Below are positions 3,599-16,375 of a DNA stretch of 64,000 nt, piece by piece. Numbering within the stretch: the stretch's first letter is position 1; every line of letters starts with the position of its first letter. The position numbers and the translations under genes were made by a program. The DNA comes from Nitrospira sp. (GTDB taxonomy: Bacteria; Nitrospirota; Nitrospiria; Nitrospirales; Nitrospiraceae): positions 1-64,000 of the forward strand of contig JACOEL010000020.1 of assembly GCA_024998625.1 (NCBI GenBank), in the 5' to 3' direction. The notes under the pieces were generated by a model that saw only the letters and a program-made list of their open reading frames with translations, had not been told where the DNA came from and searched no databases.

Positions 3599-5113
3599 TC
3601 ACTGCGCCTTGCGCGCACCCCAGAAAAAGCTCTGAATGCGCTCGACAAGGGAGCGCGTGTGTGTGACTACCGAAAGGGCCGCTGCCTCACGAGACAGTTG
3701 CGCCTTCGCCGCCGCTGTCGCCGCCTGTCTACGGGCCACCACCTCACCGATGCGCTCGATCAGCCGACGATCCTCCTGCACAACCTGCAGCAACGCCTGC
3801 TTCCCGACGGCAATGACCAACAATTCCGTCGCGGCCGACACCGTGGCCGAACGCGGCTCGCCGGTCAGTAGCGACATCTCGCCGAAAAACTTCCCTGCGT
3901 CAAGCGTGGTCACCGTGGAACTGAGCCCTCCCTGCTCCAACCGCACATCAGCTTTTCCGGAAGCGATGACATAGAGGACGTCCCCAGGCTCCCCCTGGCG
4001 AACCACCCGTTCACCGGGCAGATAGGACTCCCACCGCGCTTCTTTGGCCAACACTTCGAGCTGCTTGGCATCGAGCGTACCCAGAAAGTCGACCGCCGCG
4101 AGTTGAGCAACCATGCGTCTAACCGCCTGCCCGTTCGCAACGATCTCCGGCTCGACCGACTGATGCACCACACGCTGCGGAAAGGGGATCTCGATTCCAT
4201 TGCGCGCAAAGGCATGCCAAATGTACGTCCGCATCCGGCTTTCGATCATGTCCCGCTGTGCGAAATCACCGATCGGGAATTTGATGCGATACTGGATCGC
4301 CGATTCATTGAATGCCGTGACCAGAGCCGTCGCTTTCGGGTCCTGCAATACCCCTGGCACTGCCACAGCCGCCTCAAGCAATGTGGCACAGACCTGCTCA
4401 GGCGGACTGCGATAGGCGGCATCGACATACACGCTACAGAAATGCGTCGTCGTGGGCCTGCTGAAATTCGTCACCCCGCTCTGGATCACCAGATCGTTAG
4501 GCAGCGAGACGAGATCCTGAGCGCGAGTCAGCAGCGTCACATGCTCCATGCCAATGTGGGTCACCATCCCTTCACGATCAGCCACCGTGATCCAATCCCC
4601 CACTTTCACAATTTTTCCCAGCTCAATTCCGGAAAAGAAGCGCGTCAGCGTATCTTTCAACGCGACACCAACCATCGCCGCCGCAACGGTCGGCAACGCC
4701 ACCAGGGCCACGAGGTTGATCCCCATGACCAACCAGAGAATCACCACTCCGGCAGCCACCACTTCCGCGCCGATGAGCAGCTGCCGGACAATATCGGGGA
4801 TATAGCGCTGCCTCCGTTCGATCAGCCATTCGCCGATGATCAGGGCATCAAGAATCGTGAAGAGAAAAAAAGATGCGCCCAGCCAGGCCGCGACATCGAG
4901 TCCCGACCGGACAAAGTGCGGAATGTGGCTCACGAGTTCGCTGCGACCGACCAACGCGGCGGTCACAAGCAATAGTGCCACGCCGCCGGCATAGAACGGG
5001 AGCGGCGGCGCCGACTTGCCGCGTCGAGCCAATAGATAGGTCAGGCCCATCAATACCGCCGCCATGACGGCAAGCATCGCCAGCACCGTGCCGACCAGCA
5101 GACCCAGGCTCAT
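3599..5113 (-). CDS. MscS-type channel with C-terminal cyclic-nucleotide domain
   Basis: The 504-residue protein has four or five membrane helices in about 1-160, then the MscS pore and beta domain (VGVALKDTLTRFFSGIELGK, VGDWITVADREGMV, SLPNDLVIQSGVTNFS). From about 345 it carries a cNMP-binding (CAP-ED) domain: YLPGERVVRQGEPGDVLYVI and GKFFGEMSLLTGEPRSATV, the phosphate-binding cassette with the expected Gly, Glu and Arg. The fusion suggests a channel gated or modulated by a cyclic nucleotide as well as by tension. It lies 48 bp downstream of rel. Confidence 0.9.
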   Translation of the reverse strand: MSLGLLVGTVLAMLAVMAAVLMGLTYLLARRGKSAPPLPFYAGGVALLLVTAALVGRSELVSHIPHFVRSGLDVAAWLGASFFLFTILDALIIGEWLIERRQRYIPDIVRQLLIGAEVVAAGVVILWLVMGINLVALVALPTVAAAMVGVALKDTLTRFFSGIELGKIVKVGDWITVADREGMVTHIGMEHVTLLTRAQDLVSLPNDLVIQSGVTNFSRPTTTHFCSVYVDAAYRSPPEQVCATLLEAAVAVPGVLQDPKATALVTAFNESAIQYRIKFPIGDFAQRDMIESRMRTYIWHAFARNGIEIPFPQRVVHQSVEPEIVANGQAVRRMVAQLAAVDFLGTLDAKQLEVLAKEARWESYLPGERVVRQGEPGDVLYVIASGKADVRLEQGGLSSTVTTLDAGKFFGEMSLLTGEPRSATVSAATELLVIAVGKQALLQVVQEDRRLIERIGEVVARRQAATAAAKAQLSREAAALSVVTHTRSLVERIQSFFWGARKAQ

Positions 5114-5161
5114 GCGGATCTCACCTGATGCGGGGAGGAGAACACGCGGGTACCTCTCTGG

Positions 5162-7342
5162 CTAGGAGCGCTCTTGCCATGAGCGAACACGTCGCACGGT
5201 GATTATGCCATCGACTTTTTCAATCGCCTTGAGCACCCGAGCCAGATGTGCGGTGTCCAAGACCTCGATGATGAAATCCAGCATCGCCTTCCGATCCTCG
5301 CGGGTCGTAATTTCAGCCCGACTGATATTGGCCTGACATTCGGAGATAGCCGTCGAGACATGCGCCAGCACTCCGGTCTTGTCCACGGCGATGACCGAGA
5401 CCTTGACGGAGTGTGTACTGGGCGCGGAATGGTCCCACTCGACTTCGACCAGCCGGTTTTTGTCATAGTCCAAGGCTTCCAAATTGGGACAATCCACGGT
5501 ATGAATCGTGAGCCCACGCCCCCTGGTGATATACCCCAAGATGCGGTCGCCCGGCACAGGGTTGCAACAGCGGGAGAGTTGCATCAACAAATCCCGCGCG
5601 CCTTTGACTTGCACACCCGTGTCATCGGTCCGTCCGGTGGCCGGCTTTGGCGGCGGAACCTCAGGGACGACCGTCTGGCCTTCCGTTGCGACGGGCGGAT
5701 TGATTTTGCTCATCACCTGCGAGGTCGGCACATGGCCGAAACCAACGGCTGCGGCCAGTTCCTCCGGCGTTTCATACCCGACCTGTTTGGCCACGGCCAG
5801 GAGCTGGTCAGACCGCATCATCTGGGCCGGCGCCAGTCCATGCCGGCGGAATTCGGCTTCCAGCAACCGCTTGCCGATCTCGATGCTACGGGATTGTTCT
5901 TCAGCCTTGATCCAATGTTTGATCTTGGTTTTCGCGCGCGACGTGCGGACGAATTTCAACCAATCCCGGTGAGGCGTTTGATTGGCGGCGGTCAGGATCT
6001 CCACCATATCTCCGCTTTCCATCATGTGTTTCAGCGGAACGATCTTGCCGTTGACCTTCGCCCCCACACAATGGTCGCCGATCTCGGTGTGGACGGAATA
6101 GGCAAAATCCACCGGCGTGGAACCTTTGGGCAATTCCTTCACCATGCCCTGGGGAGTAAAGACGTAGACGACATCGTGAAAAAGATCCAGCTTGACCGAG
6201 TCCATGAACTGACGATTGTCCGGCAAATCCTGATTCCATTCCACGAACTGGCGTAGCCAACTGAAAACCTTTCCGTCTTTCTCGTCGATCCGCCCGTGCT
6301 CTTTGTATTTCCAGTGTGCGGCGATGCCCTGTTCAGACACGCGATGCATCTCCTCCGTGCGAATCTGAAACTCGACATGTTCTCCCTTCGGGCCGACGAC
6401 GGTGGTGTGCAACGACTGATACATGTTGGATTTTGGAATCGCGATGTAGTCCTTGAAACGGCCCGGCAACGGACGCCACAGCGAATGGATGACACCGAGG
6501 AGCGCATAACAGTTCATCTTGATGTCGGTAATGATCCGCAGCGCAGCAAGATCGTACACTTCCTCGAATGAGATCGATTGCTTCTCCATCTTCTGGTAAA
6601 TGCCATACAAATGCTTGGGCCGCCCGGACACCTCACCTTGCAAGCCGGCCTCGGCCATGGCGTTCTTGACCAGGTCGATGACTTCCAGAATGTATTGCTG
6701 CCGGTCTTCGTCCCGCTTCGCCACCCGAACGCGCAGTGATTCGTAGACATCCGGCTTGAGATGTTTCAGACAGAGGTCTTCCAGCTCGTTCTTAATCCAA
6801 CCGATCCCCAGCCGGTTGGCCAACGGAGCGTAAATCTCCAGCGTCTCCTGGGCGATTTGTTGCCGCTTCCCCTCACTCAGATATTCCAGGGTCCGCATGT
6901 TGTGGAGCCGATCCGCCAGCTTGATGAGGACGACGCGGATATCGTCCGCCATCGACAAGACCATCTTGCGGAAATTTTCCGCCTGCTTTTCCTCATAGTT
7001 CCGGAAGGTAATCTTGCCGATCTTGGTCACGCCATCGACCAGATGCACCACGTCCTTCCCGAATCGCTGTTCCAACTCAAGCGGCGTGGCCAGCGTATCT
7101 TCCAGCGTGTCGTGCAGCAAGCCCGCGACGATGGCCGTCACATCCGTCTTCAAATGGGTCAGCAGGCCGGCGACCGCCAGAGGATGCTGAAAGTAGGGCT
7201 CACCGGATCGGCGCATCTGTCCTTCATGCGCTTTGGCCGAAAAATCATAGGCCCGTCGCACAAGATCGAGGTCTGCCTCGACGTTGTAGCTCTTCACCCG
7301 ATCGATCAGCTGACTCAGCTCTGTCACCGTCTCGTGCGGCAT
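5162..7342 (-). CDS. rel: bifunctional (p)ppGpp synthetase/hydrolase Rel
   Basis: The 726-residue RSH-family enzyme makes and breaks (p)ppGpp. It has the HD hydrolase (HPLAVAG at 53, HDTLEDT at 77) and a synthetase domain with RPKHLYGIYQKM. The RFKDY segment is the RxKD motif that marks bifunctional Rel rather than the RelA-type ExDD. Then come YQSLHT, a TGS domain (VYVFTPQGMVKELPKG), a conserved-cysteine region (RCCNPVPGD) and an ACT domain from about 650. It starts 2 bp after recJ ends, so the two are very likely cotranscribed. No other RSH gene is in the window. Confidence 0.95.
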   Translation of the reverse strand: MPHETVTELSQLIDRVKSYNVEADLDLVRRAYDFSAKAHEGQMRRSGEPYFQHPLAVAGLLTHLKTDVTAIVAGLLHDTLEDTLATPLELEQRFGKDVVHLVDGVTKIGKITFRNYEEKQAENFRKMVLSMADDIRVVLIKLADRLHNMRTLEYLSEGKRQQIAQETLEIYAPLANRLGIGWIKNELEDLCLKHLKPDVYESLRVRVAKRDEDRQQYILEVIDLVKNAMAEAGLQGEVSGRPKHLYGIYQKMEKQSISFEEVYDLAALRIITDIKMNCYALLGVIHSLWRPLPGRFKDYIAIPKSNMYQSLHTTVVGPKGEHVEFQIRTEEMHRVSEQGIAAHWKYKEHGRIDEKDGKVFSWLRQFVEWNQDLPDNRQFMDSVKLDLFHDVVYVFTPQGMVKELPKGSTPVDFAYSVHTEIGDHCVGAKVNGKIVPLKHMMESGDMVEILTAANQTPHRDWLKFVRTSRAKTKIKHWIKAEEQSRSIEIGKRLLEAEFRRHGLAPAQMMRSDQLLAVAKQVGYETPEELAAAVGFGHVPTSQVMSKINPPVATEGQTVVPEVPPPKPATGRTDDTGVQVKGARDLLMQLSRCCNPVPGDRILGYITRGRGLTIHTVDCPNLEALDYDKNRLVEVEWDHSAPSTHSVKVSVIAVDKTGVLAHVSTAISECQANISRAEITTREDRKAMLDFIIEVLDTAHLARVLKAIEKVDGIITVRRVRSWQERS

Positions 7343-7344
7343 AA

Positions 7345-9051
7345 TTACGACACCTCACCGCTCATGCGGAGGGCCTTGATACGCAACTGCACCCGATCGG
7401 AGCCGTTCCAATGATTGCGCTCGGGGCTGAAGGCCAAGTCCACCGGTCGACCGGCCCTGAGCCCCAGCTCTTCAAACGAGCCCATGCGAAAGCCGATACT
7501 ATCGAAGATAAATGACCGCCCTTGCCGCACACGCAACTTCAAATGCTTCTCGCCGACGACTCGCGCCTCCACCACATCCAGGCCGCGAACAGCCAAGGTG
7601 GGCTCGGGATTGCCGGCCCCGAAGGGATGCAGGGATTCCAGTTCCTGGATCAGGTCGAAATTGACATCCGTCAGTTTCACTTCGGCATCGACATGCAGGG
7701 TCGGCACCGTGCGCGCACCACCAGACCACTGAGCCGCCACCTCACAGAACCGCCAGCGGAATTCCTCCAACCGCGATTCCTTGAGCGTCAGTCCAGCGGC
7801 ACTCGGGTGACCACCATAGGCCTCCAGCAGATCCTTGCACTCCGACAATCCCTGATACAGATCGAACCCCTCCACCGTCCTGGCCGAGCCTTTCCCTATG
7901 CCCTGCCCATCGATCGCAATGACGATACTCGGACGATGGAACCGGTCCACCAAACGGGCGGCAACGATCCCGACAACACCCAGATGCCAGTCACGCGAGC
8001 CCAAGACGATCGCCGCAGCCGGCTCATCCTGCTTCAGATAGGTCGCCGCCTCACCGACAATGCCTTCCTCGATCTGTTGCCGCTGCCGGTTCAATTGCTC
8101 CAACCGTTCGGCAATCTGCATGGCCTCCTGATCGGACTCCGTTGTCAACAGCCGCACACAGAGCATGGCATGATCCAGCCGTCCTGCGGCATTCAACCGG
8201 GGGCCGAGACGGAAACCAATCGTCTCGCTCGTACAGGTCTTTGCGATACCAGCTACCTGCTTGAGCGCGCGAATTCCAGCGCGGGTACCACGCGTGATGT
8301 GAGTCAGGCCTTCCCGCACCAGAATCCGATTCTCATCATGAAGCGGCACGATGTCCGCCACCGTTGCCAACGCGACCAGATCCAAACAGGAGTCAGGCTC
8401 CACGTCGCCGGATCCATACCGTTGCCGGTAAGCCGACACCACCTTATACGCCAATCCCGCCGAGCAGAGCCCTTTGAACGGATAGATCGCATCGCGCCGG
8501 TGCGGATTGAGCACGGCAAGGGCGGCAGGCATCGTGGCATCAGTTTGATGATGATCCGTGACGATCACATCCATACCGAGTTCCCGGGCGACCGCAATCT
8601 CATGATGCGAGGTCGTCCCGCAGTCGGAGGTGACAAGCAGCGAAATCCCCTCTTCCGCTAAGCGGCGAACCGCCCTCTCGTTCAACCCGTAGCCTTCGCG
8701 AACCCGATGCGGAATGTAGCCACAGGCGTTCCCGCCGAGGCCTTGATAGAACGACAGATAGAGACTCGTCGCCGAGACCCCATCGACATCGTAGTCGCCA
8801 TAAAAACAGACCCGCTCCTGGCGAGCGAGGGCCTGATGTAACCGCTCGACAGCCGGTTCCATATCAGGGAGCAGAAATGGATCATGCAGCCCGCCCTGCA
8901 CGCCGGACATCCAACGGGTCGCTTCATCGGGAGTCGTGACACCGCGCGCAAGCAGCACCGACGCCGTCACCGGCGAGATCGACAATTGCTCCGACAGATT
9001 GTGCTGCAAGGCACGATCGGCCGCTCGAAACACCCACAACTTGTCCTGCAT
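7345..9051 (-). CDS. recJ: single-strand DNA 5'-3' exonuclease RecJ
   Basis: The 568-residue protein is a DHH-family nuclease. It shows the metal-binding motifs FYGDYDVDGVSATSL (motif I), TSDCGTTSHHEI, VTDHHQT (the DHH) and the DHHA1 signature GGHPSAAGLTL, followed by an OB-like C-terminal domain. In known systems RecJ trims 5' ends in recombination (RecFOR) and mismatch repair. The ATG at 9051 has AGAGG about five bases upstream. It leads a tight pair with rel. Confidence 0.95.
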   Translation of the reverse strand: MQDKLWVFRAADRALQHNLSEQLSISPVTASVLLARGVTTPDEATRWMSGVQGGLHDPFLLPDMEPAVERLHQALARQERVCFYGDYDVDGVSATSLYLSFYQGLGGNACGYIPHRVREGYGLNERAVRRLAEEGISLLVTSDCGTTSHHEIAVARELGMDVIVTDHHQTDATMPAALAVLNPHRRDAIYPFKGLCSAGLAYKVVSAYRQRYGSGDVEPDSCLDLVALATVADIVPLHDENRILVREGLTHITRGTRAGIRALKQVAGIAKTCTSETIGFRLGPRLNAAGRLDHAMLCVRLLTTESDQEAMQIAERLEQLNRQRQQIEEGIVGEAATYLKQDEPAAAIVLGSRDWHLGVVGIVAARLVDRFHRPSIVIAIDGQGIGKGSARTVEGFDLYQGLSECKDLLEAYGGHPSAAGLTLKESRLEEFRWRFCEVAAQWSGGARTVPTLHVDAEVKLTDVNFDLIQELESLHPFGAGNPEPTLAVRGLDVVEARVVGEKHLKLRVRQGRSFIFDSIGFRMGSFEELGLRAGRPVDLAFSPERNHWNGSDRVQLRIKALRMSGEVS

Positions 9052-9247
9052 GAATCCTCTATCTTTACCTGCAATAATCAGAAGTTACTAAGAAGTGACG
9101 GAATGGTATCGACTCACTTGTTTTTTGTCAAACGAGGCTCGTTGGACGAGAGCGTTCTTGGAAGGGCGGTGACGATCAGCGCTCTGACAGACGAACGACG
9201 TCTCGGGTGCACAGCAGGAGGGACAGACAGGGAGCGGATAAGAAGAA

Positions 9248-9267
9248 GGAGGGGACTATTCCCCTCC
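9248..9267 (-). terminator. rho-independent terminator overlapping the pup stop codon
   Basis: The perfect 8-bp stem GGAGGGGA/TCCCCTCC with a 4-base loop pairs 9248-9255 with 9260-9267. On the minus strand it is followed by TTCTTCTTAT. The loop contains the pup TAG, and one arm encodes the final Gly-Gly-Glu codons. Confidence 0.7.
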
Positions 9268-9453
9268 CTTTTGCACATAGTTCTTCACGAATTCTTCGGC
9301 ATTTTTTTCGAGTACGTCGTCGATTTCATCGACGAGTTTGTCGATGTCCTCTTTCATTTTTTTCCCGGACTCGACGACCTTTGGATTCGGCTTGACCTCT
9401 TCCTTCTGATGAGACTCTCTCCTGGATTCCGGTCTCCTCTCCTGCTTCTCCAT
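9256..9453 (-). CDS. pup: prokaryotic ubiquitin-like protein Pup
   Basis: The 65-residue, highly charged protein ends DEIDDVLEKNAEEFVKNY then VQKGGE. That is close to the C-terminal half of mycobacterial Pup, which binds the proteasomal ATPase and carries the Gly-Gly-Glu/Gln used for conjugation. The glutamate terminus means it needs no deamidation by Dop before PafA links it to lysines. The ATG at 9453 is chosen because GGAGG sits seven bases upstream. The N-terminal half is disordered-type, rich in Glu, Lys and Arg. The proteasome, Dop, PafA and ATPase genes are not nearby, so this pup is apart from its usual partners. Confidence 0.9.
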   Translation of the reverse strand: MEKQERRPESRRESHQKEEVKPNPKVVESGKKMKEDIDKLVDEIDDVLEKNAEEFVKNYVQKGGE

Positions 9454-9503
9454 CGGAGCACCTCCAGTCAATCAGAACGTGTTCGAATGACCCATCTACT
9501 GTC

Positions 9504-9533
9504 ACCTTACTCTAGGGCCCTCGAACGCGTCAA
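9504..9533 (-). promoter_or_regulatory. possible pup promoter
   Basis: On the minus strand TTGACG (9528-9533) and TAAGGT (9504-9509) are spaced by 18 bp, about 50 bases before the pup start. The -10 match is weak, so this is tentative. Confidence 0.35.
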
Positions 9534-9594
9534 GCCAAGGGGCACATCACGTCCGAAGGACTCGCACGTGACGCATTCCAGCTCACCATTTCGC

Positions 9595-11649
9595 CTATGT
9601 CACAATGAGCGAGACGATCAGCAGCGCCACGATGTTGATGACCTTGATCATCGGATTGATCGCCGGCCCAGCCGTATCCTTGTACGGGTCGCCGACCGTG
9701 TCGCCGGTTACCGCCGCTTTATGCGTATCGGTCCCCTTTAGTCCCTGCTCCTCGATGTACTTCTTGGCATTGTCCCACGCGCCGCCGCCGCTGGTCATGG
9801 AAATGGCGACAAACAGGCCCGTCACAATGCTTCCCACCAGCACTCCGCCAAGCGCCTGCGGGCCAAGGATGACGCCCACCAGGATCGGAGCCACCACGGG
9901 AATCAACCCTGGGATCATCATTTTCTGAATCGCCGCCTGCGTCACGATATCCACGCAGGTGCCGTACTCCGGCTTGCCGGTTCCTTCCATAATGCCTTTG
10001 ATCGTCCGGAACTGACGCCGGACTTCTTCCACAACCAGCCCGGCCGCCTGACCGACCGCTTTCATACATAACGCGCCGAAGATGAACGGCAACATTCCGC
10101 CCAGGAAAAGCCCCACGAGCACCGACGGATTGGACAGGTCGAAGGTGCTCGCTTGAGTGCCCTTGGCCACTTCACGAGCGAACTCGGCAAACAACACTAC
10201 CGCCGCAAGCCCGGCCGAACCGATCGCATACCCCTTTGTGACCGCCTTTGTCGTATTGCCTACGGCATCGAGTGGATCCGTGATATCCCGTACTTCTTTC
10301 CCCAGATGGGCCATTTCGGCAATCCCGCCGGCATTGTCCGTAATCGGGCCGAACGCATCGATTGCCACCACGATCCCTGCCATCGACAGCATCGACACCG
10401 CCGCCACGGCCACACCGTACAAACCGCCCGAAGCCGCGCCGCCGCAGATCCAATAACTGCCGAGAATCGCCCCTCCGATAATCACCACGGGCGCAGCCGT
10501 CGACTGCATGCCCACTGCCAGACCGGCAATGATATTCGTTGCATGGCCCGTTTCGCTGGCCTTGGCGATATCCTTGACCGGCGCGTACTCCTTGGACGTG
10601 TAATAATCGGTGATGAAGACCAAGGCCAGCGTCACCGCCAGCCCCATCAGCGCCGCCAAATAATAACTGAGACCACTCACGCCGCCGACCCCTTCCATGA
10701 TCTTCGAGGTGATCGGGTAGAACGCCACGGCCGCAATCCCGCCAGCCACGAACAACCCCTTGTACAGGGCCGGCATGATCTCGCCGCCCGGACTCACTTT
10801 CACAAATAGAATGCCGATGATCGTGGCGAAAATGGTCACCCCGCCTAACGCGAGCGGATACAGAATCGGTGCACTGACCCCCTTGAACATCGTGAACGCG
10901 AGGACCATCGCGGCCACGGTCGTCACCGCGTAGGTCTCGAAAAGGTCTGCCGCCATACCTGCGCAATCGCCGACGTTGTCGCCCACATTGTCCGCAATGA
11001 CTGCCGGATTACGAGGATCATCCTCAGGAATACCCGCTTCTACCTTCCCGACCAGGTCGGCGCCCACGTCGGCCGCTTTGGTATAGATGCCACCGCCGAC
11101 GCGTGCAAACACGGAAATCAGGCTGCCGCCGAAACCAAGGCTGAGTAAGGCATGAATCGCCTTTTCCTGCCCGGCCATCTGCGAGGCCAGTGTGTAGAAA
11201 CTGGTAATCGCCAGAAGACCGAGCCCGATCAGCAGCAGCCCCGTCACCGCACCGCCACGAAACGCGACGGTCAACGCCGCGTTCATGCCGTTGTGGGCCG
11301 CTTGCGCCGTCCGCACGTTCGCCCGGACCGCGATAATCATGCCCACATAACCGGCGAGTGCCGAGGCCCCGGCGCCAATTAAAAATCCGATGGCCGTCAG
11401 CATTCCGAATTTGTCCGATACGGCGCCCGCCCCCCAGAGCACCACGAACAAGACCGCCGCCACCATGCCGACCGTCTTGTACTGGCGGTTCATATAGGCG
11501 CCGGCGCCCTCCTGAATCGCTTTCGAAATTTCCTGCATCTTCGCATTACCCGCGTTGAGTTTGAACACCCACATGGCAAGATAGAGGCCATAGGCAATAC
11601 CGGCAATCGCCGCAATCAGAGCAAAGGTCACAATCGCTGAGTCGCTCAC
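9595..11649 (-). CDS. hppA: membrane-bound H+-translocating pyrophosphatase, K+-independent type
   Basis: The 684-residue protein has about 16 membrane helices and couples pyrophosphate hydrolysis to proton export. The substrate site shows [20 protein letters not shown] and [20 protein letters not shown]. The [17 protein letters not shown] segment has Lys where K+-dependent enzymes have Ala, which places it in the K+-independent class. The GTG at 11649 follows AGGAGG by eight bases, so the longer ATG frame is rejected. In an energy-limited nitrite oxidiser it would recover energy from biosynthetic pyrophosphate (inference). Confidence 0.95.
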
Positions 11650-11939
11650 AGTGTTCTCCTCCTGTTCACAGAATGGTGAAACTGAGAATCCAGCTAAGTG
11701 TCTACGCGAATACACCGTCGCGAACATGAACCAGTCACGTACAACGGTCGACGAATGTCACAGAATCTCCGTGGCCTGAACCCATCGCGAGCTGAGAACG
11801 CAGCAGGAAGAAATGCTGCATGCCCGACAACAGACACGGTGCGAACGAGCGGAAAGTGGCGCCATTCTATAGCGAGGCTAGAGTCGGATCAAGACGAAAG
11901 ATGGAAAACCTGCCCCTCTATCGGCAGCGGATCGATCGA
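11650..11939. other. intergenic gap upstream of hppA
   Basis: These 290 bp separate the hppA start from the end of the next minus-strand gene. I see no convincing gene, terminator or promoter in it. Confidence 0.4.
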
Positions 11940-13756: not shown

Positions 13757-14995
13757 CTACCTAGCGACAGGAATGTTCTCGCTGAACTTCGCGATGGGGA
13801 TGGACTGAAACACCGGGTCCTGCGCACCCTTGGATGACTCCGCCTCAATGCGTTGTAAGAAGGCAGACGGCCCAGTCACAGGAGCGTAACTGAGGAGGGC
13901 CTCGACGTCGAAGGTCTTGGTGTCCTTCGGCGTCGTGAAGGTAAAGGTTTCCAGTCGCTTTTCTTCCGGCTTGAGCACCGTTTCTTCAAGCACCTTGACG
14001 GCCTCAAAATCGAACACCGTTTTTTGCCCCTTGGCGTCGGCGTATGTCCGCCCGTAGACGCGCTTCTCGCTGAACACGGTCTTGAGGTTCTTGCCCTTGA
14101 TATCCAACTCCAAGACGACACTGGCCCAACCGGGATGGGTGGTCGGCAGATTATGCGGGACCAGGCTCTGCACGGCTACCGTCACAGTAGTTTTCTCCCC
14201 TTCCACTTTGGTCGAGACTTCCAACTTGGCCGCTTCCTGCCTAAGCTGACCGATGCGGCCCGGAAACGTATGGTTCGCCACTTTCCGCTTGGCTTCTCCG
14301 TTGGCCGACTCCCCCACCTGCTCAGGCATGTGGCAGGTTTGGCATTCCTTGCCAGACTTCACGGCTTTGCTCTGGTCCCAATTTCCCAACAGGTCGTTAC
14401 TCTTGCCGAGGTCCGCCGCAGCAGGCACCACCTGGTGACAATTCAAGCACAGGTCAGACTTGTGGAAGAGCCCCAATTCCATGGATTGGTGCGCAAGGTT
14501 CTGCGCGAAATCTTTGTACGGGCCATACATGGTCTTGCTGCCGAGATCGTACTTCGGCTCAGGCGGTTGTTTCGTGCGATCGACCTGCTTGATGAGGTGA
14601 CATTGCACGCAGGCCACACCATCCAATGACGGCTCACCGGATTGAGCCTGAGTCACGAACAAGTGAGCCTGGTCGGCAAACTCGCGCACATGCGGGGCAT
14701 GACAGCGAAAGCATAAGGCTTTGTCTTTCCCGGCAGAAGAAGTCAAGTAGGCATCGAGCGCCGCCCGGAACGTCGGCGTGTGTATCGAACGCGAAAGCGG
14801 CGACGTCTCCCACTCTTCGAACACCCGCTCATGACAGCGCTTACACTTACTCGAGCTGGGAAAGGCCTTTTCGATCGTGGCCTGAGCCTTGGCATCTTGG
14901 GCCAATCCCTGCTGCACGCCGTAGCTGGTGATAGCCACCGCCGACAACACCAGGCCGATTACGAATCCCTGCAGTAATCCTCGTCGATTCTTCAC
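13757..14995 (-). CDS. exported pentaheme cytochrome c, copy 1
   Basis: The 412-residue protein has an N-terminal signal/anchor (about 8-32) and five CxxCH heme sites: CKRCH 51, CFRCH 95, CVQCH 129, CLNCH 183 and CQTCH 218. The C-terminal 180 residues are beta-rich and heme-free. The N-terminal half resembles cytochrome c-554-type multiheme proteins, and MYGPYKD is shared with its upstream paralogue. GTG at 14995 is chosen because GGAGG precedes it. A GTG 12 codons earlier would add a non-signal-like extension. It is probably periplasmic, an electron carrier or redox enzyme of unknown substrate. Confidence 0.82.
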   Translation of the reverse strand: MKNRRGLLQGFVIGLVLSAVAITSYGVQQGLAQDAKAQATIEKAFPSSSKCKRCHERVFEEWETSPLSRSIHTPTFRAALDAYLTSSAGKDKALCFRCHAPHVREFADQAHLFVTQAQSGEPSLDGVACVQCHLIKQVDRTKQPPEPKYDLGSKTMYGPYKDFAQNLAHQSMELGLFHKSDLCLNCHQVVPAAADLGKSNDLLGNWDQSKAVKSGKECQTCHMPEQVGESANGEAKRKVANHTFPGRIGQLRQEAAKLEVSTKVEGEKTTVTVAVQSLVPHNLPTTHPGWASVVLELDIKGKNLKTVFSEKRVYGRTYADAKGQKTVFDFEAVKVLEETVLKPEEKRLETFTFTTPKDTKTFDVEALLSYAPVTGPSAFLQRIEAESSKGAQDPVFQSIPIAKFSENIPVAR

Positions 14996-15067
14996 CGTCG
15001 GCGTATCCTCCGCACAGTACTCAATCCTCACTGCCTGTGGTGCACGGCCCGCTGCAGGGGAGCTTAG

Positions 15068-16375
15068 TTAGAGTGATTTGGCCCGATAGGTCAGCATACG
15101 AGGCTGAATGTATTCCTCAATGACCTTTTTTGCGGTCGCCCGCTCCTGATCGTTCGCCAAGGTCGCCAGATACTTTGCTTTGAGTTCCGCTTCCGGTTCC
15201 GGGATCAATGCATAACTGAGCACGACCTCAATCGTCTCCGCCGCGGCGCCATCCTTCAGCATTTGGGAAAACTGGACACGGCGCGTGTTGCCGCCCTTGA
15301 TGAACGGGTCAGGAATCGGGCCGCGCAGAATCTTGTCGTAGGGAAGACCGAATCGTTTCGTCTCTTCACCCAACACATTCCCCTGCGCATCCTTGATGGT
15401 GATCGCAAGAAAGAACTGCTTCAACACCGGATCGCCGTCGGGGAAACTATGCGGCAGACTGCCGACCTTCACGAGCACGGTTCCGTCCACCCCCGTCCCG
15501 GACTTCGTCGCTTCCACCTCGATACGCGGCATCCACTCTGCCTGCAGGTTGCGGTTCTTCAACAACGTCCCGGGAATAACGACCCCGCGGAACCAATGGC
15601 GGCCAATCGCACGGGTCATGGCGCCGCGTTTCGACGTGGAACTCCCGGTGGAGGGCTCCATATGGCAATCCTGACAGATGGTCCCCTGCAGAATCTCGCC
15701 GGGTAAATCCTTCTGCGTGACATCCTTCACCTTGTCGAAATGGCAGGACGTACAGAAATTCGCGCCACGAAACAGCGGCAACTGCATGGCCGGATGCACC
15801 AGATTCTCTTCCGGATCAGAATAGGGACCATAGAGCATCTCGCCCGGCTGCACCTTGTAGGTCGGAGGAGGCAGCGGCGTCGTTTCAACGGCGTTGATGA
15901 GGTGACAGGCCGCACAGCCGATGCCCTCGATCTGCGGCTTACCGGACAAAACTTGAGCGCTGATCTTCTCGACATGCTGAGGAAAGACCGTCACGGCCGG
16001 CGCATGGCAGGACAAACAACGTTGCCGCTCCTGCATCGTCGGATTAGTCTGCATCCATACGCCCAGCACCGTCCGGAATACCGGCGATTCGAACGAGGTA
16101 CCATGCAACAAGGCCGCATCGACCCGTCCGAACGATTTCAGGTCCGGAGTCTGCTCGCGCATCCCCTTCCATTCTTCGTAATGACGATCGTGGCATTGTT
16201 TGCAATCTTCCGATCGGATGAAGATCTTTTCGATCTCGGCCATCCAATCGGCCGGTACCTGACCATCGGGCCTCTGCGCGATCGCCCGTTCGTGAAAGGT
16301 GATGTTGAGCAGTGCCAGGAACAGCAACACCCCGCCCATCGCCAATTTTTGAATCGATCGTCCCTTGTCGTTCAC
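15068..16375 (-). CDS. exported pentaheme cytochrome c, copy 2
   Basis: This 435-residue paralogue of the next gene downstream has a signal segment at 10-34 and five CxxCH sites: CKQCH 58, CLSCH 120, CAACH 154, CTSCH 208 and CQDCH 234. LYGPYSDPEENLVHPAMQLP matches the MYGPYKD region of copy 1. A heme-free beta-rich C-terminal half follows. The start is GTG. It lies 72 bp upstream of copy 1 and 24 bp after the PDZ gene. The tandem copies suggest a two-component electron relay or a duplicated redox enzyme. The substrate cannot be read from the sequence. Confidence 0.82.
   Translation of the reverse strand: MNDKGRSIQKLAMGGVLLFLALLNITFHERAIAQRPDGQVPADWMAEIEKIFIRSEDCKQCHDRHYEEWKGMREQTPDLKSFGRVDAALLHGTSFESPVFRTVLGVWMQTNPTMQERQRCLSCHAPAVTVFPQHVEKISAQVLSGKPQIEGIGCAACHLINAVETTPLPPPTYKVQPGEMLYGPYSDPEENLVHPAMQLPLFRGANFCTSCHFDKVKDVTQKDLPGEILQGTICQDCHMEPSTGSSTSKRGAMTRAIGRHWFRGVVIPGTLLKNRNLQAEWMPRIEVEATKSGTGVDGTVLVKVGSLPHSFPDGDPVLKQFFLAITIKDAQGNVLGEETKRFGLPYDKILRGPIPDPFIKGGNTRRVQFSQMLKDGAAAETIEVVLSYALIPEPEAELKAKYLATLANDQERATAKKVIEEYIQPRMLTYRAKSL

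Follow-up and report, generated by a model that had tools for sequence, protein, structure and literature searches.

Pup tags proteins in bacteria much as ubiquitin does, and a Pup ending in GGE requires no deamidation. In the Pup-proteasome locus of Actinobacteria and other bacteria, its gene accompanies those for ARC/Mpa, Dop, PrcB, PrcA and PafA. A passage in PMC2588565 states that pup is 'invariably' adjacent to a gene of the PafA family, and a passage in PMC3511204 that gene order at the pup locus is 'rigidly conserved'. The stretch of DNA analysed here (the window) comprises 64,000 nucleotides of a contig from the nitrifying bacterium Nitrospira sp. Its source genome resembles the described systems in carrying all parts of the locus and a normal Pup, but differs in that pup does not lie beside dop or prcB.

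The pup gene and its immediate neighbours

The pup coding sequence is located on the reverse strand at 9256-9453 (ATG at 9453, TAG at 9258-9256) and specifies 65 amino acids ending in NYVQKGGE. The product matches the Pfam Pup profile (PF05639) with 76.9 bits (cut-off 27), covers profile positions 5-69 of 69, and is the only such match in the source genome. A Pup ending in Gly-Gly-Glu had been proposed in a first-pass annotation, and both translation and profile agree with it; of the interval given there, 9248-9453, the end at 9453 is correct, and the start at 9248 lies inside the 3' arm of the hairpin described below. The C terminus is thus of the Gly-Gly-Glu/Gln type expected of Pup and, being already GGE, would need no deamidation. 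Among 137 pups of the genus and family, 129 end in GGE and 8 in GGQ, the search pattern having demanded one or the other. The gene is 70% purine, the highest value among 353 called genes being 60%, and is preceded by a Shine-Dalgarno sequence, GGAGGTG (9459-9465, reverse strand), which forms a conserved block in the genus alignment.

Upstream of pup lies hppA (membrane pyrophosphatase, 9595-11727) and downstream recJ (exonuclease, 7345-9051), followed by a gene for a relA/spoT-like (p)ppGpp enzyme (relA, 5162-7342). These names are putative assignments from the sequences; all three genes are conserved neighbours on the same strand as pup. A promoter-like block (GGCTTGACG...CCCTAGAGTAAGGTGAC, 9501-9536, reverse strand) precedes pup and is conserved across the genus as TTGACG...TAGAGTAAGG, although a consensus promoter scan of the window did not list it. 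The recJ-relA pair has a promoter-like site of its own (TTGACA-17-TACCAT, 9103-9131, reverse strand), which agrees with 10 of 12 consensus bases and is supported by the genus alignment. Because conserved promoter-like blocks precede both pup and recJ, and the sequence between the hairpin and the recJ site is variable across the genus, the arrangement fits transcription of pup as a one-gene unit. Elsewhere in the window (13757-16375), two adjacent CxxCH-rich genes probably encode multihaem cytochromes.

Relocation of pup across the order

The source genome contains genes for the ligase, the depupylase, the ATPase and the 20S subunits. They lie in a row on another contig, C36, as ARC (4900-6669), Dop (6681-8180), PrcB (8194-9018), PrcA (9022-9705) and PafA (to 11213; coordinates of locus L011). 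The 13-nt gap between Dop and PrcB is the usual slot of pup, and it holds no pup. The first-pass annotation was therefore right to place pup apart from the proteasome genes, and the genomic check it called for locates the whole pupylation set on C36 and pup elsewhere. Its remark that the usual neighbours are absent holds for the surroundings of pup only: the set is intact on the other contig, and the move is order-wide.

A second set, a complete UBact locus on contig C7 (L012, 5063-11838), comprises ARC-like, Dop-like, UBact, PrcB-like, PrcA-like and PafA-like genes, so that the genome has two tag-proteasome loci. The tag gene of this set (PF20513, 75.5 bits) lies inside its own cluster and its product ends in GQ, which distinguishes it from the pup of the window. 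The PrcA-like protein scored 21.8 bits in one search and 22.5 in another, with a cut-off of 22.4. UBact was found in 24 of 29 genomes of the genus and in 136 of 172 of the family. At the Pup locus, ARC (ending at L011 6669) has the C terminus NTGHYL, presumably a docking-type motif; the ARC of the UBact locus (L012 6862) ends in LVNQII, without such a tail.

Pup was found in 27 of 29 genomes of the genus and in 157 of 175 of the family, and its neighbours were read at 28 loci of the genus, 110 further loci of the family and 23 further loci of the order. In the genus, the order hppA-pup-recJ was seen at 25 loci, with only recJ seen at two and only hppA at one. For the rest of the family the corresponding counts were 101 for hppA-pup-recJ, four for hppA-pup-relA, three with hppA only and two with recJ only; for the rest of the order, 10 loci had hppA-pup-recJ, eight recJ only and five relA only. 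As far as the flanks show, all 161 loci thus have pup in the hppA/recJ/relA neighbourhood, and at none of the 161 does dop or prcB adjoin it. Conversely, PrcB directly follows Dop in all 30 family loci read around Dop (60 genomes searched). In four loci of the family (L067, L186, L207 and L212) relA directly follows pup and recJ was not seen.

Outside the order the canonical arrangement prevails. In the rest of the class, dop-pup-prcB was read at 10 of 11 loci (PrcB only at the other), and in the rest of the phylum at 12 of 14 (PrcB only at one, PafA only at one), so that Dop and/or PrcB stand beside pup at 24 of these 25 loci and PafA at the remaining one. Among 53 named loci, mostly from Actinobacteria, Myxococcota and Deltaproteobacteria, 47 have dop-pup-prcB and one has Dop only. 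The other five gave no resolved order: two came without neighbours, one without a Pup match, one with an HppA stretch and one with ARC pieces. Named loci L070-L095 and L097, mostly Nitrospira records, were excluded from the neighbourhood counts.

Judged from gene order, the simplest account would be that pup moved once, at the root of the order. The order-wide relocation contradicts the rules as worded in the quoted passages of PMC2588565 and PMC3511204. It shows that Pup can be expressed separately from its enzymes, so that the amount of Pup can be adjusted independently of the amount of proteasome. Neither a relocated pup nor a pup terminator in Nitrospira was found in the non-subscription literature searched.

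A hairpin across the pup stop codon

The end of pup can fold into a hairpin, AGGGAGGGGA-ATAG-TCCCCTCCTT (9269-9246, reverse strand), with 10 pairs, a loop of four and a free energy of -17.7 kcal/mol (consensus scan; folded alone). Its 5' arm (9260-9269) consists of the last two bases of the Lys codon, the Gly codons GGA and GGG and the first two bases of the Glu codon, and is conserved and covarying in the genus. The loop (9256-9259) comprises the last base of the Glu codon and the stop TAG, and the 3' arm (9246-9255) begins at the first base past the stop. A U-rich tail follows (CTTCTTATCC, 9236-9245), which in the window copy is weak and interrupted (CTTCTTATC), yet passes the strict scan described below; most relatives in the genus have better tails, with unbroken T runs. 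A search of Rfam over positions 8000-11000 gave no match at gathering score. With its GC-rich stem, short loop and T-rich tail ahead of the promoter-like site of the next gene, the structure resembles an intrinsic (Rho-independent) terminator, and differs from one in being built partly from the gene itself: codons supply the 5' arm and, with the stop, the loop. It is probably a transcription terminator, a putative assignment from the predicted fold.

For comparison among relatives, a strict rule was applied: a perfect stem of at least 6 bp, a loop of 3-9, at most -9 kcal/mol, a U tail, and a position spanning the stop. It was passed by 24 of 27 pups of the genus (the failures being L014, L025 and L036), by five of 110 other pups of the family and by five of 23 others of the order. 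No canonical-site pup (0/68) and no stop of the upstream hppA in the same loci (0/127) passed. In three genomes of the genus it was passed by one of 995 genes, in a survey that under-samples short genes because the gene caller overlooked pup and, probably, further small genes, and by none of 805 coding windows. The simple form is missing from most other genera of the family (105 of 110 pups), but many of these pups have a longer nested hairpin that still uses the same codons. The hairpin is also part of the minimum free energy structure of the pup mRNA, taken from 60 nt before the ATG, in 26 of 26 genus pups; one of the 27, on a short contig, was left out.

A looser criterion, which asked for six or more paired sense bases across the stop, was dropped; it gave 27/27 in the genus, 83/110 in the family and 18/23 in the order against 46/69 at canonical sites, and did not separate relocated from canonical pups. 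Combined with a T-rich tail it did separate them (15/27, 34/110 and 5/23 against 2/69). From the canonical group, L326, L333, L334 and L338, without a recognised GG[EQ] stop, were dropped, and L104, the neighbours of which were unrecognised, was included.

Dinucleotide shuffling gave a mixed result. None of 200 shuffles of a 36-nt piece of the window folded as well as the hairpin (z -3.36), against nine of 200 for a 61-nt piece (z -1.93), and p 0.05 was reached by no more than 15 of the 27 pups in the genus and 34 of the 110 in the rest of the family. The test is a weak one here because the downstream tail is pyrimidine-rich and its shuffles often fold as well. Covariation, arm swapping and scans with the same ruler were therefore used.

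The Lys codon in pups of the genus is AAG or AAA, so its third base is a silent site within the stem. Across 27 pups this site forms A-U in six, G-C in 15 and G-U in six, with no mismatch; on a locus tree, where one further register was admitted, L018 counts as a mismatch. The 21 Watson-Crick pairs were reached by 35 of 10,000 permutations, which ignore relatedness, and on the locus tree the A-U pair occurs in two separate clades, in one of them beside G-U relatives. In arm swapping, likewise with relatedness ignored, a pup's own downstream sequence paired better than those of others, shuffles being as good in one of 500 cases for the genus and in none of 500 for the rest of the family. Together with this compensatory change, the 10-bp fold bears out the first-pass reading that the last codons and the stop make up one arm and the loop of a terminator-like hairpin, and the comparison it had suggested across the genus returned a strict hairpin with U tail in the 24 pups mentioned above.

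In the genus, all 27 pups end both Gly codons in a purine, as do 77 of the 110 pups from other parts of the family; the rate for Gly-Gly pairs in the remainder of the source genome is 143 of 842. Among those 110 family pups, the association of such codons with strong stems is a trend only (42/77 against 11/33). The further suggestion that RNA structure explains the conservation of the C-terminal residues did not survive, since pups in canonical operons keep GGE or GGQ although none of the 68 scanned has the strict hairpin. It appears instead that the protein had fixed these codons first and that the hairpin arose around them, which leaves only the synonymous choice to be attributed to RNA or base composition.

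How the pup transcript may end

We regard it as reasonably probable that pup was relocated in the ancestor of the order and forms a one-gene transcript ending at a stop-overlapping terminator, perhaps backed by Rho; termination at this site is what we infer from the fold and its conservation. Pup would have departed the dop-pup-prcB operon in the common ancestor of the order and taken up a place between hppA and recJ-relA, transcribed singly from a promoter of its own. A terminator would then have been gained, at least in the window's genus, with the Lys-Gly-Gly-Glu codons as 5' arm and the stop in the loop. Since it overlaps the stop codon, the pup mRNA would have almost no 3' UTR. RNA polymerase would be at the U tract soon after starting the 198-nt gene, the hairpin would fold if the ribosome had not yet arrived at the last codons, and transcription would stop ahead of the recJ promoter. 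A ribosome on the last codons would block the hairpin, and the C-rich, G-poor RNA downstream would then offer a second chance via Rho.

Several observations count against this account. In E. coli, according to PMC4824070, ribosomes repress a terminator a few bases past a stop codon almost completely, and termination recovers once the distance exceeds about 30 nt; moreover, the U tail of the window copy is weak, shuffled sequences frequently fold as well, the loose pairing measure fails to set relocated pups apart, and the simple form is missing from most other genera of the family. Three options address the repression: polymerase may outrun the ribosomes, Rho may do most of the termination, or repression may itself be the signal. 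Of these we prefer outrunning by polymerase, with Rho as a second line. A precedent is the runaway transcription of Bacillus type, for which a passage of PMC13323073 describes terminators close to or inside genes and a polymerase that outruns the ribosome. Under such a mode a hairpin at the stop could function; here, however, a single gene is concerned, and the genes of the genome average only 51.7% purine.

The composition downstream of pup bears on the second option. The 45 nt past the stop in the window are 87% pyrimidine, a value reached by none of 144 control genes (mean 50%). Pups of the genus average 81% after the stop, 70% over 90 nt (against 51%) and 66% over 130 nt, and their downstream C/G ratio is 4.3 against 1.03, a bias that fades slowly and is still raised over 130 nt. 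This is untranslated RNA of the C-rich, G-poor kind on which Rho acts, the tract at 9166-9255 (reverse strand) is a possible Rho loading region, and a Rho gene is present. Rho might thus end the transcript, the hairpin mainly capping and protecting a trimmed 3' end or being a by-product of a purine-rich end next to a pyrimidine-rich tail, a combination that many family members have without the simple hairpin. Phase-exact pairing, compensatory change and the unbroken T runs of most genus members would be superfluous for Rho, however, and we consider this reading rather unlikely. Pairing, the Rho-type tail and purine bias overlap at the end of pup, and the three are only partly separated here.

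The third option would make the hairpin a translation-controlled switch, in which ribosomes decide between an end and read-through into recJ-relA, or in which a freed 3' arm (CCUCC) covers the pup ribosome site and provides feedback by Pup. In favour of this reading, the loop contains the stop, a place at which E. coli ribosomes would repress termination (PMC4824070); recJ-relA comes next on the pup strand; and the anti-Shine-Dalgarno-like 3' arm is complementary to the GGAGG of the ribosome site. Read-through is unnecessary, however, because recJ-relA has its own conserved promoter-like site, and the complementarity follows from the 5' arm encoding Gly-Gly. A switch of this kind therefore appears improbable. 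Just as doubtful is a broader version, in which relocation gave pup a supply switch of its own, a ribosome-sensed and Rho-backed terminator linking Pup translation to transcript length and recJ-relA read-through; if true, tag supply would be wired together with stringent-response genes. Least likely is a functionless chance palindrome inherited within one genus from skewed base composition, for although the shuffled tail often folds as well and the simple form is concentrated in that genus, pairing is kept by compensatory changes in two clades and the hairpin is missing from all 127 hppA stops and from all but one of 995 surveyed genes.

Terminators hugging the stop were rejected as a general trait of the genus: other terminator-like stems in the three genomes mostly start at least 10 nt past the stop, and for 18 of the 20 best stems under the strict rule the distance is 10-79 nt. 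In such a genome, where other terminator-like sites stay clear of the stop, the pup hairpin offers a natural test of how termination proceeds at a place that ribosomes would be expected to block.

In a further family of the order (L353), pup is followed by a long near-perfect palindrome with the stop codon in its stem and then a T run, an arrangement that looks independent in origin.
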